A stretch of 45,379 nt of DNA from Microcaldota archaeon (GTDB taxonomy: Archaea; Micrarchaeota; Micrarchaeia; Micrarchaeales; CABMGC01). The notes beneath the pieces are model-generated. The model saw nothing but the letters and a program-made list of their open reading frames with translations, made no database searches and had not been told where the DNA came from. Shown here piece by piece: positions 21,006-25,936 of this stretch (position 1 is the first letter of the stretch; every line of letters starts with the position of its first letter). The translations under genes and the position numbers were made by a program. The stretch spans positions 1 to 45,379 of the forward strand of contig JAJZND010000023.1 in assembly GCA_021848025.1 (NCBI GenBank), read 5' to 3'.

Positions 21006-21272
21006 GTGGAAGTGGGAATAAAAACCAGAATGGCGAGCAGAGCTGTGCGGCAGGCTCAATCCTGCATGCCTACCGGCATGGAGGAGATGGAGCGGTATGC
21101 TCTGGAGTACCCGGAATACAGAAAGGAGATAGTAGCGGCAATCACAGCTTACGGAGGACGGGAGAAGAACTGGAAAAAAGCAAGGAAGGCAATGGGCATA
21201 GTTGAGAGGATAAATGCGGCAAGCATGCTGGAAGGCTTACGCGACGAAGAAGACGCGGAGCAGAGATATTAA
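21006..21272 (+). CDS. Hypothetical small helical protein (88 aa)
   Basis: Not recognised. Charged and helical, with MEEMERYALEYPEYRKEIVA followed by REKNWKKARKAMGIVERIN; no membrane segment. It starts at GTG 21006, with TATA box CTTTATATAT (20971-20980) centred 30 nt upstream, which favours a leaderless transcript; ATG 21030 is an alternative. It overlaps the end of the convergent VKOR gene by four bases. Confidence 0.55.
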   Translation: MEVGIKTRMASRAVRQAQSCMPTGMEEMERYALEYPEYRKEIVAAITAYGGREKNWKKARKAMGIVERINAASMLEGLRDEEDAEQRY

Positions 21273-21673
21273 CCGTGCTTGGCTGCATCATACAGAGTAA
21301 GTATGAAAAGCAGCACTATTGTTACATGCACTGTAGTGCAGAAAATGCAGATATGCCCGATAAGATATTCCAGGTAAATGAAGTAAAAGACGAAGACCAA
21401 CCCGAGAGCATTGTACACTGCCTTGAGGTCCTTATATCTTAAATTAAGTATCACCAGTTCGACAACGAAGAAGACCAGTCCGTAAACTGCCAGCGGCACA
21501 CCAAGTATGTAAGCATATGCGCTGTTGAGTACAGATGCGCAGTTGATTAGGCCGGTGTCAGGGCACGCCAGCGGCACAGAGCTGCTGTAATGGTAAGCAG
21601 TAAGGTAGATAGAAACGAGCAGACCCAGCACTGCCAAAATCATGCATGACAGATACACTCTGTCTTTGTTCAT
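21269..21673 (-). CDS. VKOR-family disulfide-generating membrane protein
   Basis: A vitamin K epoxide reductase homologue, the functional equivalent of DsbB: it reoxidises a thioredoxin-like partner and passes electrons to a quinone. In 134 residues it has four membrane helices, the loop pair C37/C45, S51, and the active-site C109-IF-C112. The C37/C45/S51 spacing matches human VKOR C43/C51/S57. Its gene starts 2 nt after the DUF929 thioredoxin-like gene, so the two are surely cotranscribed and probably form one redox relay. Confidence 0.9.
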   Translation of the reverse strand: MNKDRVYLSCMILAVLGLLVSIYLTAYHYSSSVPLACPDTGLINCASVLNSAYAYILGVPLAVYGLVFFVVELVILNLRYKDLKAVYNALGLVFVFYFIYLEYLIGHICIFCTTVHVTIVLLFILTLYDAAKHG

Positions 21674-21674
21674 G

Positions 21675-22490
21675 TTATGCGCCTAATTGCCTTTCTATGC
21701 TTTTGACATAGTCCTGGCCGCAAACGCTCTGCGGGGTGTTATTGTCTGCAGTGCAGATCTGCGCTGTTAGCAGATTCGCGGTTCCGATTATTGCCTGTGA
21801 CTGCACAGACGACGGATTCTGCAAGTCCTGTGCTATAACGCTCCAGTTGGTTGCGTATAAAACTGCCTTGGGCTGATAGTTGGCTCCTATCTGTATGGAG
21901 TAGTTTCCGATGTCTATAAACGGTATGCTGCCTCTCTCGATGCTAGGCAGTTGCGGGTTATTCGCATCATAGAAATTGAAAAGCGCCTGCTCCTGGCTCG
22001 TAGGGCTCTCCAGCGGAGCACCCGTATTGGTCTCAGCTTCTACTGGTATGAAAGTTATGTACGGGCTATAGTAGCTTGAATTATAAAAAGTAAAGGTAGG
22101 CGTGCTTGGGGAGACAGCATCCGTTGCGCTCGATGTCATAAATTTAACCCCTTTGAATGTACCAAACCTCATCAGTGCAATTAACATGCCCCATCTCTCG
22201 GCAGCGCAGTATGGGCAGTATTCCGCACCATAATAAAACACTGTCGTTTTATTATCTATTCTGAGTGGCGTTGCATTGGCTAGGATGGTCGGGAAACTAC
22301 TCACGCTTCCTATGCCTACCTGATTGCTTATGCTGCCGGAAACATTAAGCTGCGACAGAAACGAAGCAGGCACAGGCTTATTATCGTATGTTGCAAGCGC
22401 CTGGTCTTTAGGTCCTCCGTTAAGAACAAAGATTGCTGAAGCTGCAATTATGACCACTATCAATATCATAATGTAAAGTTTGGCTTTCAT
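21675..22490 (-). CDS. DUF929 membrane-anchored thioredoxin-like protein
   Basis: An N-terminal anchor (KLYIMILIVVIIAASAIFVL) is followed by an extracellular domain with the redox motif C92-PY-C95 in FYYGAEYCPYCAAERW, typical of DUF929 (PF06053), and a C-terminal cysteine pair (QICTADN, SVCGQDY). It probably oxidises or isomerises cysteines in exported proteins as a DsbA-like partner of the adjacent VKOR; this is inferred from pairing and motif. ATG 22490 is chosen over TTG 22502 because an AT-rich TATA-like element (AATAATTAAAG) lies about 23 nt upstream. Confidence 0.88.
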   Translation of the reverse strand: MKAKLYIMILIVVIIAASAIFVLNGGPKDQALATYDNKPVPASFLSQLNVSGSISNQVGIGSVSSFPTILANATPLRIDNKTTVFYYGAEYCPYCAAERWGMLIALMRFGTFKGVKFMTSSATDAVSPSTPTFTFYNSSYYSPYITFIPVEAETNTGAPLESPTSQEQALFNFYDANNPQLPSIERGSIPFIDIGNYSIQIGANYQPKAVLYATNWSVIAQDLQNPSSVQSQAIIGTANLLTAQICTADNNTPQSVCGQDYVKSIERQLGA

Positions 22491-22635
22491 TCTAATTCCC
22501 AATTACTTTAATTATTTGCTGCCCAAAGGCTAAAAAAGCTTGCCTCTTCTACTCTGTTGGCTCTTTGTTTTCTGTTCTTTGCCCATGCAGAAGCGCACTC
22601 TTGCGCAGGTTAGCAGCTTATCCATCCTGATTGCA

Positions 22636-24048
22636 TTACTCCGCCAAATTCTTCCTTATTATGGCAACTATCTGCCTTAAGACCTCATTTTTCCCGGATT
22701 CTCCGGAAAGCTTTATGCCTACTGCGTTCCTGTGCCCTCCTGCCGAGTCTATCCTGCTGCCATATCGCTCTAGCAGTGTGCCTGCTAGCTGGACAAGCCC
22801 TGCCGCTTCGCCAATGTCCCTGCTTGCCCTTATAGAGATGAAGTTTCCTACATGGCATACAACTACACATCCCTTCCCATTTTCCTTCTCCAGTTTCTCC
22901 AGCAGTTTCGATGAGAATCTGCCCAGCAGAGGGTATCGCGACTGTTTCTCTTTTACATTGCCGTAATCAAGAGTATATATGCTATGCCCTCCTGCATTGT
23001 TCTCCTTCAGCAGCGGGATGGCCTCATCTGCAGCCTCTGCGACCCTCACATTTGCGTACATTGCAAGTTCGCTGGATCTTGCCTTGTCCTGAAGGAGCTG
23101 CTCTATTTCATATGGAGTTAGGTTTCCGTTCCTGCCAGAATGCACGAATGATGCATCGCTTGTTATTAAGTCCAGAAGGGCGGAGAGATCCTGGGCTTCC
23201 TTGTAAAGATTTGCATGCTTGCTGTAGTCACCTATCAGCGAAGCATCTTTGAAGATAGTCGTGTCTGCATTCGAAAATGATTTAACCAGCACTGATGAGA
23301 GCAGGCCTGCAGTATAATCAGAATTCCCTCCAAACATCCATGGATTTATGTAATATTCAAGGCTCTTTCCTTCAAAGTCCCCGGGCACCGGATGATGGTC
23401 AAGCCACAGTATATCAAAATACCTGCCTATGCTTTTTATGCCTTCATTGCTCTTTTCCGATGTGCCAAAATCTATCAAGATCATCAGCGGCTTCTCCAGC
23501 GACTCATACGCATTCACCAGCATTATATCATAATTCGCCTCTTCTTTTCCGTAGATGACGCCTCTATTCATGATCCAGAAAAGGTTTATCCTCTTCTCTA
23601 TCCTGCCATTTCCTTCTGAGAAGTCCTTAAGGCCTTTATAGATTGAATATGCGCCGCTGCTCCCATCTGCATCGTTATGGAATCTCACCACAATTGGCGC
23701 TCCTGCGAGAAACTTTTTAAGCAGAAGGGAAGCCCCTTTCGTTATCTCAGGCCACATCTCCCTGTTAAGCTTGTCCAGTTCATTTACTCCGCTTGCCGGT
23801 GGCGTTTCCTTTAGAGCAGATTCTATCTTCCTTCCAATTGCTTTTTCTATGAGCTTCCTCCTAAGCCGTGCATGTTTGCCATTTGCAGGTTCAGCTGTCG
23901 CACCCTCCGCGTCAGTCATTTCCCCGAGCTCAATCTTCAGCGGGCTTTCTAGCTCAATGGTGAAGAGCCCTCCCTTTCCGTCATCAGCAGTTACATAGTA
24001 AAAATCCAGGTTTGGCCTGTGTTTTATGCACGACACAATTCCATACAT
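22636..24048 (-). CDS. DHH/DHHA1 phosphoesterase (RecJ-like)
   Basis: Metal-dependent phosphoesterase of the DHH superfamily. Seen in 470 residues: HNDADGSSG (124-132), LIDFGTSE (191-198), LDHHPV (216-221) and the C-terminal DHHA1 motif SAGGHRNAVGI. An N-terminal region of about 110 residues may be a substrate-binding domain. Archaeal relatives include RecJ-like nucleases (GAN) and oligonucleotide or cyclic-dinucleotide phosphodiesterases; sequence alone does not decide. It is the last gene of a three-gene operon, 3 nt after the cysteine-rich protein. Confidence 0.85.
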   Translation of the reverse strand: MYGIVSCIKHRPNLDFYYVTADDGKGGLFTIELESPLKIELGEMTDAEGATAEPANGKHARLRRKLIEKAIGRKIESALKETPPASGVNELDKLNREMWPEITKGASLLLKKFLAGAPIVVRFHNDADGSSGAYSIYKGLKDFSEGNGRIEKRINLFWIMNRGVIYGKEEANYDIMLVNAYESLEKPLMILIDFGTSEKSNEGIKSIGRYFDILWLDHHPVPGDFEGKSLEYYINPWMFGGNSDYTAGLLSSVLVKSFSNADTTIFKDASLIGDYSKHANLYKEAQDLSALLDLITSDASFVHSGRNGNLTPYEIEQLLQDKARSSELAMYANVRVAEAADEAIPLLKENNAGGHSIYTLDYGNVKEKQSRYPLLGRFSSKLLEKLEKENGKGCVVVCHVGNFISIRASRDIGEAAGLVQLAGTLLERYGSRIDSAGGHRNAVGIKLSGESGKNEVLRQIVAIIRKNLAE

Positions 24049-24051
24049 GCG

Positions 24052-25224
24052 CTATCCGCTCTGGCCAGTTCCCGAAGAGGTCCGGTTAAGCACTGCTTCC
24101 ACACACGCTGAATTTGCAGTGCCGTTCTGTATATATCCGCAGTAGCTGGACTGGTTGTAAGATACGGCAAGCGAAAAGTAGCAGTAATCACCAAAAGACT
24201 GGTTAAACGATGCACAGGCGCTTGCATTTTTGTTCAGAATGGCATAGTAAAGCATGTACTGATTCTTAAGCTGGTTTATGCTAGGGCAGTATTGGCTTAA
24301 AGTATTATTGTCAATGCATTGCTGATACAGCTGAGTGTAGTTTTCCGAGAAGTTTAACTGAAGCGAGGAGTTGGCAGCCGGAATCGTGGTTGCAGAAGCC
24401 GCTACTGAATAATAAGCGCATATCTGCCCAAGAGACAGGTTTGATATTGCTGAGCAATAAGCCTGGTTATGTGATTTCATAGCCAAGTCTACATAGCACT
24501 CGTCCCTGGGGCTGGCATTTACATACTGGCTCAATATTATGCTGCTTAGGGGGTCGGTTATATTTGTATACGCATAAGCTTTGTTCCCATATGAATTGAG
24601 GTATGTAAAGAAAAGCCCTGTCTCGTTTAAGTTAGTATTGTTCTCTACTGCGGCGCAGTAGCTGGCATTTTCTCCAACTATTGCTTTTTCGAAAGAGATA
24701 GTGGAGGTGCACATCGTCCTGTTCACTCCATCTGTTATGCTGCTGCATATACTCGTGTTCTCCAGCTTGAGTGCAAGTTCCATATCGCATTTATCCAGGT
24801 ATGTGCCGTTCAGCGTGGCGCAGTCCTGGTATGAATCAGTGGAATTGGCTATATAAATGGTGCAACCGGCATTTACTGATCCGGGGGAAGCCATATCACA
24901 AATCGTAAGATTTTTCTCCTGTTCTGCGATGGAAGAATAGCAGTTGTTGGCCATTGGTTCAGGTACATACCTGCAGATTGAGTAATTGCCTGTCGACTGT
25001 GCAAGATTCTCCAGGCAAGAATATTTATACCCTGAAAGGACTATGCCTCTGCATCTCTCAAATGCGCTTCCTGAAGGGATAAGCAGGTAAATTATAAGGG
25101 TCAGTGCGAGAAGTATGCCTATTGCAAATATCGCCAGTTTTATCATGCCTGCATGCTGCTCTTCGGCAGTAACTTCAGCTTCACCATTTTTCTTGCCTTT
25201 GCCAGGATTTTTCATCTCAATCAT
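24052..25224 (-). CDS. Membrane-anchored 20-cysteine repeat protein
   Basis: Unrecognised. A basic cytoplasmic start (about 1-27) leads into one membrane helix (IKLAIFAIGILLALTLIIYL), then about 340 extracellular residues rich in N-x-S/T sites. All 20 cysteines lie outside the membrane. They recur in a degenerate unit C-x(2-3)-(I/L)A-x(6-8)-C: CLENLAQSTGNYSIC, CYSSIAEQEKNLTIC, CDMELALKLENTSIC, CYVDLAMKSHNQAYC, CYFSLAVSYNQSSYC. This suggests a chain of small disulfide-locked helical repeats. It overlaps the upstream KaiC-like gene by 8 nt. A likely client of the VKOR/DUF929 pair 1.5 kb downstream (inference). Confidence 0.8.
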   Translation of the reverse strand: MIEMKNPGKGKKNGEAEVTAEEQHAGMIKLAIFAIGILLALTLIIYLLIPSGSAFERCRGIVLSGYKYSCLENLAQSTGNYSICRYVPEPMANNCYSSIAEQEKNLTICDMASPGSVNAGCTIYIANSTDSYQDCATLNGTYLDKCDMELALKLENTSICSSITDGVNRTMCTSTISFEKAIVGENASYCAAVENNTNLNETGLFFTYLNSYGNKAYAYTNITDPLSSIILSQYVNASPRDECYVDLAMKSHNQAYCSAISNLSLGQICAYYSVAASATTIPAANSSLQLNFSENYTQLYQQCIDNNTLSQYCPSINQLKNQYMLYYAILNKNASACASFNQSFGDYCYFSLAVSYNQSSYCGYIQNGTANSACVEAVLNRTSSGTGQSG

Positions 25225-25936
25225 AGTTTACTATGTTCTCAGCCGCAGTTATCTTGAAACCTGAAGGGGTTATTTCATAAGGCGTTGTTATCATGCTGTG
25301 GGATGTGCCCCTCATCTTGATAACCTCTATAGCAGGCATCCTCTTGAAATCCTCGCCGGTCTGGTACATTGTAATTATGCCGTCAAATACGAAATGCTCC
25401 GGGCTGAATTCAAGTCGGTTCCTTTCCGGAGATTTCATTTCTTCAGTAAATAGGGAAATCACCCCATGCTTCCTCAGGCTTGTTATGATTTCGACTATCG
25501 CTCTTCTGAAACGGGCAGGCTCGGGGGCCATCAGCGCAAGCATAGCCAGCGAGTCAATGACAACACATTTGGCATTTGATTCTTCTATTTTTGATTCTAT
25601 TGCGGAAAGAAGCTTGCCCAGTTCATACTGTGTTCCTGAAGTAGTATAATATGGATCGGGGTAGACAAGCATCTTGCCGCTCTCTATCATCTCGTCTATC
25701 CTGTCCAGTTCATAGAATGCTGCCTTGGCATTTCTAATCACCCTCTCTGGCTCTTCATCTAATGAAAAGAAGATTCCGGTAGCGCCGTTCAGCGCATTCC
25801 TGTATAAGAATTCAAATGAAATCAGCGTTTTTCCGGAACCGGGCCCTCCCTCAACTATTACCTGATTGCCTTCAGGTATGCCTCCATTTAGCATCGCATC
25901 TAGACCATCTATCCCGGTCTTTACATATCCTGCCAT
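25217..25936 (-). CDS. KaiC-like RecA-superfamily ATPase (paralog 1)
   Basis: A single-domain KaiC-type ATPase of 239 residues. Walker A GGPGSGKT (30-37), tandem glutamates in SLDEEPE (61-62), Walker B VVIDS (125-129) and the KaiC C-terminal signature IKMRGTSHS...YEITPSGFKI are visible. Archaeal single-domain KaiC relatives are thought to act in signal transduction and oligomerise as hexamers (family knowledge); RadA recombinase is excluded by the lack of an N-terminal HhH domain. First gene of an operon with the 20-cysteine protein and a DHH phosphoesterase. A paralog lies at 29354. Confidence 0.88.
   Translation of the reverse strand: MAGYVKTGIDGLDAMLNGGIPEGNQVIVEGGPGSGKTLISFEFLYRNALNGATGIFFSLDEEPERVIRNAKAAFYELDRIDEMIESGKMLVYPDPYYTTSGTQYELGKLLSAIESKIEESNAKCVVIDSLAMLALMAPEPARFRRAIVEIITSLRKHGVISLFTEEMKSPERNRLEFSPEHFVFDGIITMYQTGEDFKRMPAIEVIKMRGTSHSMITTPYEITPSGFKITAAENIVNYD

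Follow-up and report, generated by a model that had tools for sequence, protein, structure and literature searches.

The locus described here raises the question of whether an enzyme pair for disulfide formation and a nearby surface protein with 20 cysteines form a single functional unit. The preliminary description of the window (the whole stretch of 45,379 nucleotides analysed here, from an archaeal genome of 1.05 Mb in 31 contigs) had read them as a module for oxidative folding together with its dedicated client. On the minus strand, a KaiC-like ATPase gene (25217..25936; PF06745, E=1.8e-50) is followed by the gene for the 20-Cys repeat protein of 390 aa (24052..25224), a gene for a DHH/RecJ-like (Hef-associated-nuclease-like) protein (22636..24048; PF01368, E=9e-6; NF053577, E=7e-12), an intergenic gap of 133 nt (22503..22635), a gene for a membrane-anchored, thioredoxin-like DUF929 protein with a CPYC motif (21675..22502; PF06053, E=6.3e-28) and a gene for VKOR, a predicted membrane quinone-linked thiol oxidase (21269..21673; PF07884, E=1.8e-22). 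The start of the 20-Cys gene overlaps the KaiC-like gene by 8 nt, and the DHH/RecJ-like gene begins 3 nt past the 20-Cys gene. VKOR and the CPYC protein are adjacent, as had been described, with 1 base between them, and the 20-Cys gene was indeed found 1.5 kb upstream of them on the same strand; it is not directly adjacent to VKOR, since the DHH-family gene (22636-24048) lies in between. The 133-nt gap contains a T-rich stretch and, just before DUF929, an A+T-rich stretch, and this sequence suggests a possible transcription start of the DUF929-VKOR pair itself; scans for sigma-70 promoters and terminators around the operon yielded signals at background level only. The ATG at 22490 appears to be the likelier start of DUF929.

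Both members of the enzyme pair scored well above the cut-offs of their families. VKOR obtained 80.4 bits against PF07884 (gathering cut-off 27.5), and its conserved residues are complete, comprising the loop pair C37 and C45, S51 and the CxxC motif C109-x2-C112; a role as a quinone-dependent oxidase is predicted from the family domain and these conserved residues. The DUF929 protein obtained 98.2 bits against PF06053 (cut-off 24.6) and carries CPYC after an N-terminal transmembrane (TM) segment, features that make it the likely donor in a predicted DsbA-like role. VKOR transfers electrons to quinone from a donor with a thioredoxin fold, and both the gene adjacency and the knowledge of the two families are consistent with an electron path from DUF929 to VKOR. 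As in the VKOR-DsbA pathway, a quinone-linked VKOR would act with an exported thioredoxin-fold CxxC protein, here encoded by two adjacent genes; the donor differs in being a DUF929 protein, a family placed in the thioredoxin-like clan by sequence as a fold assignment only (PMC3091736) and also present in an archaeal secretome (PMC8345856). VKOR was detected in 141 of the 164 genomes of the order, and the VKOR-DUF929 tandem, observed at about 25 of the 30 loci viewed, is present in nearly all of the f1 family genomes inspected; the two genes lie apart in family f2. Some genomes of the order have two VKOR genes, and a second type of VKOR with a longer loop occurs away from DUF929 (L036, L042, L052, L053, L059). 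A second, divergent and longer DUF929 protein (~350-400 aa) is also encoded away from VKOR in almost all genomes of the order (G000:C6:1401-1772 and equivalents).

The 20-Cys protein consists of a short cytoplasmic tail, one N-terminal TM segment (approximately residues 28-47) and a repeat ectodomain. It contains exactly 20 cysteines, which amount to 5.1% of its residues compared with 0.86% in the sampled ORFs of its own genome, and no other exported protein in the sampled part of that genome is as dense in cysteine. A profile search of the order detected it in 146 of 164 genomes, and those lacking it are all less than 90% complete; the gene is a core gene of the order. The identity of the orthologues to the window protein is only 22-35%, rising to 89% within its genus. 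A single-protein scan of genome contigs gave one relative, 89% identical, labelled Candidatus Micrarchaeota. Because the 20 Cys columns are kept across the order at 22-35% identity, the cysteine pattern is not a chance feature. The ectodomain Cys counts of 148 orthologues, which are not independent of one another, were 20 (120 sequences), 18 (23), 14 (4) and 19 (1), and the sole odd count belongs to a protein truncated by a contig end (G255), such that the remaining 147 of 148 are even. Moreover, cysteines were lost only pairwise: C13 and C14 are missing in G037/G046 and likewise in G219, the g32-g36 lineages lack two of C15-C20 (which pair is ambiguous in one clade), and G054/G059/G235 lack the last six. 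If the cysteines pair in the phase C1-C2, C3-C4 etc., each of these losses takes out complete units; the other phase would strand partners. The spacing inside the pairs is variable, mostly 9-14, and that between pairs is fixed at 14 at most positions. The even counts and pairwise losses suggest that the protein is very probably fully disulfide-bonded. In the window protein, the array from C58 to C374 (24103..25053, minus strand) would accordingly form ten i/i+1 disulfides, namely 58-70, 84-95, 109-121, 135-146, 160-172, 190-243, 257-269, 303-313, 337-348 and 362-374; the pairing 190-243 is less certain, with a variable insert of 18-78 residues between the two cysteines. The repeat unit is about 26 residues long (C-x11-C-x13). 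The regular C-x4-A-x8-C motif of the preliminary description is present in six segments, and what it marks is the 14-spaced linker helix between disulfide units; the bonded unit is the other phase, C-x10-12-C. N-x-S/T sequons are also enriched in the ectodomain (mean 17.7 versus 6.6 in shuffles), and many of them take the form N-x-S/T-x-C at the leading cysteine of a pair, consistent with a predicted glycosylation of the ectodomain.

Modelling of the repeats, as had been suggested, produced a clear architecture. The AlphaFold model of the 20-Cys protein (alignment of 56 sequences) is all-alpha with a mean pLDDT of 81, reaching 93-97 over the first repeats, and short and long helices alternate to form a solenoid. 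For a regular 27-Cys paralogue (15 sequences), the pLDDT was 91.7, and helices of six and fifteen residues alternate every 26 residues. The models therefore predict alpha/alpha units, each of which would contain one disulfide as judged from parity and pairwise loss. Foldseek searches against the PDB revealed local TPR-like similarity only, with TM-scores of at most about 0.26 among the matches listed and no global fold match. Short local similarity is thus shared with TPR and other alpha-solenoids, from which the present repeat differs by its 26-residue unit, its six-residue short helix and its intra-unit Cys pair. Among the closest known systems are the Helicobacter cysteine-rich proteins (Hcp), exported proteins of tandem alpha/alpha Sel1-like repeats in which disulfides brace each unit (PMC2581425, PMC3851747). 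The 20-Cys protein would share with Hcp the export, the alpha/alpha tandem repeats and the bracing disulfides; in Hcp, however, the repeats are 36-38 residues long instead of about 26, and at the sequence level the protein matched none of the PDB chains. Pfam also returned no Sel1 match for the 20-Cys protein, placing it outside the Hcp/Sel1-like proteins by profile. In other words, the protein would work like Hcp but is not a member of that family, as unit length and the lack of a sequence or global fold match indicate. Alpha-helical tandem repeats with cysteines at regular intervals are likewise known from the middle repeat region of CagY of Helicobacter pylori (PMC2581425), although the CagY motifs are 38-39 residues long, differ in sequence, are K/E rich and belong to a type IV secretion system.

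The neighbourhood of the 20-Cys gene was compared across the order. The DHH gene adjoins it at about 132 of 146 loci, as its conserved downstream neighbour, and the KaiC-like gene adjoins it at most loci, as the conserved upstream neighbour. VKOR-DUF929 is its neighbour in no more than about 10 of 146 genomes, all in one subclade of family f1, in addition to G026, in which DUF929 alone is nearby. On the tree of the DHH and 20-Cys proteins, the VKOR-proximity label comprised 11 rows and required six changes, at least four of which are forced by well supported branches. In the remaining f1 genomes, which make up most of the family, VKOR and DUF929 are still in tandem but are located elsewhere. 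Because VKOR adjoins the 20-Cys gene in about 10 genomes of one subclade, lies elsewhere in other f1 genomes and is apart from DUF929 in f2, the proximity observed in the window is a derived arrangement of recent neighbours. The gene neighbourhood does not support a module, and the stable neighbours of the 20-Cys gene are the DHH and KaiC-like genes. The pairing of the DHH gene with the 20-Cys gene is conserved across the order and in family f15, and in most of the order the gene for the KaiC-like ATPase flanks the 20-Cys gene on the opposite side (window 22636-25936; L241, L243); genes for a cytoplasmic nuclease-like protein and an ATPase thus accompany that of a predicted surface protein.

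The distribution of the oxidases bears on the same question. If VKOR-DUF929 had evolved together with the repeat protein and chiefly to serve it, the same-strand closeness in the window and in the approximately 10 f1 genomes, the cysteine density of the protein and the core status of both VKOR and the repeat protein in the order would be readily explained. Nevertheless, three genomes with 90-94% completeness and no VKOR match (G009, G056, G214) keep all 20 cysteines, and family f15 retains a 20-Cys orthologue with no VKOR, DUF929 or DsbB detected. Outside the order, VKOR was below the cut-off in nearly all genomes; a VKOR profile tuned on the VKORs of the order found none in 36 near-complete genomes, with positive controls matched in a second run, and DUF929 was absent from the same 36 genomes. 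The repeat family is therefore independent of VKOR, as its members persist in genomes without VKOR or DUF929. The co-occurrence expected from the preliminary description accordingly failed outside the order, where the paralogues occur mostly in genomes without VKOR; inside the order this is not the case, and the correlation between VKOR and the repeat protein was set aside as uninformative there, both being core and their absences (23 and 18 of 164 genomes, 4 shared) fitting incomplete bins. The client is probably also not a solitary one. Among the exported-like proteins with cysteines in the window's genome, 17 had even and 2 had odd counts, compared with 67 and 98 of the non-TM proteins (Fisher p=4e-5), in a test covering about 40% of the genome with TM and export calls from a simple hydropathy rule. 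Disulfides are thus probably common in this exported proteome, in which the 20-Cys protein, at 5.7% Cys, is the richest case and not the only one. Taken with the location of VKOR-DUF929 elsewhere in most f1 genomes and its dispersal in f2, these results make a dedicated pairing unlikely. What stands of the earlier reading is the VKOR-DUF929 pair itself and the very probable disulfide bonding of the 20-Cys protein; the terms "module" and "dedicated client" do not.

Herein, we propose with good confidence that the 20-Cys protein is a surface scaffold rich in sequons and braced by ten i/i+1 disulfides, and that its oxidation in this order depends on a general VKOR-DUF929 pathway serving the exported proteome. 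The protein would be a single-pass surface protein whose ectodomain forms an alpha-alpha solenoid of hairpins of about 26 residues (short helix, loop, long helix), each stapled by one disulfide from the cysteine of the short helix to a cysteine close to where the next long helix begins, leaving zero free thiols. It would be exported unfolded and then oxidised by the CPYC motif of the DUF929 protein as a DsbA-like donor, which VKOR would re-oxidise with quinone as the acceptor. The pair would serve the exported proteome of the order in general, with the 20-Cys protein as its most Cys-rich known client, and outside the order the repeat family might be oxidised by DsbA-like enzymes. Most likely, the protein would provide the cell surface with a rigid scaffold, for binding or for structure, that withstands proteases and acid. 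Two other functions of the cysteines were considered. Metal-rich acidic habitats may be home to many members of the family, and a reservoir against acid or metal stress in which the cysteines bind zinc, copper, iron or Fe-S clusters could be envisaged; this is very improbable for an extracytoplasmic protein without CxxC, CxC or conserved His/Asp partners, in which the cysteines are even in number and lost in i/i+1 pairs, and whose lipoprotein paralogues show the same spacing. KaiC-like ATPases have a proposed role in archaeal signalling, and the conserved gene pair and the many cysteines might instead indicate that the protein acts as a thiol/disulfide relay or sensor, carrying information between the cell exterior and the ATPase encoded upstream. 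This also seems improbable, although slightly less so: the protein has no CxxC, every cysteine is conserved within a structural hairpin, the only possible contact with the ATPase is the short, poorly conserved cytoplasmic tail, and the KaiC-like gene has moved or is absent in several genomes.

The surface scaffold with ten disulfides proposed above appears to be one version of a much wider family. No match for the repeat was found in Pfam, NCBIfam, PHROG or the PDB, no relatives of the protein were found in plasmids, phages or a viral scan, and no description of the repeat family was found in the literature. The C-x11-C-x13 repeat is a new family, with a match in 255 of the 301 genomes of the phylum Micrarchaeota searched. 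Genomes outside the order usually encode several lipoproteins with the same 12/14 spacing, in arrays that mostly start and end with the spacing of about 12. After removal of the lipobox cysteine, 25 of 26 listed proteins had an even Cys count, one listed antisense ORF row being left out (26 of 27 with it). In family f15, a close orthologue with 20 ectodomain cysteines lies beside the DHH gene. DsbB as a replacement for VKOR in other orders was rejected, as it was absent in all but 2 of the 46 genomes searched. DsbA-like Thioredoxin_4 proteins showed a distribution opposite to that of VKOR, occurring in 9 of 14 genomes outside the order and 0 of 7 inside, and in several lineages outside the order none of VKOR, DUF929, DsbB and Thioredoxin_4 was found. 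We are somewhat inclined to regard disulfide-stapled alpha-solenoids with the 26-residue C-x11-C-x13 unit as an undescribed, major exported class of Micrarchaeota, present as multicopy lipoproteins in most orders and, in the order that has VKOR, as one membrane-anchored copy with ten disulfides, its gene fixed beside those of a DHH nuclease and a KaiC-like ATPase; the oxidising enzymes might have been exchanged (DsbA-like for DUF929-VKOR) and the client family kept. DPANN surfaces are poorly known, with few exported families of predicted architecture, and a repeat that spans the phylum and shows a clear fold and disulfide code is a target for structural and host-contact studies. The family also offers a way to study the oxidation of exported proteins in small archaea that are anaerobic or acidophilic, and a comparison of lineages that have VKOR-DUF929 with those without a detected oxidase would make archaeal disulfide donors testable through one client family.

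Several further arrangements were observed among the relatives. CPHC is the thioredoxin motif of E. coli DsbA, and in G143, from a lineage without VKOR, a lipoprotein with this motif is encoded directly upstream of a Cys-repeat lipoprotein (L244 3402-3947). In another lipoprotein architecture with the Cys repeat, a long N-terminal domain precedes four to six Cys hairpins, which are followed by a Cys-rich domain at the C-terminus (L145 634-2103; L149 1198-2586; L134). Several other families encode a second Cys-repeat lipoprotein, with 22-33 cysteines, convergent with a gene that by eye resembles ribosomal protein uS2 (L241 4095-6146; L242 2948-4885; L247 2018-5178; L248 3219-5579; L251 3081-5159), and this position is conserved and distinct from the DHH-linked one.
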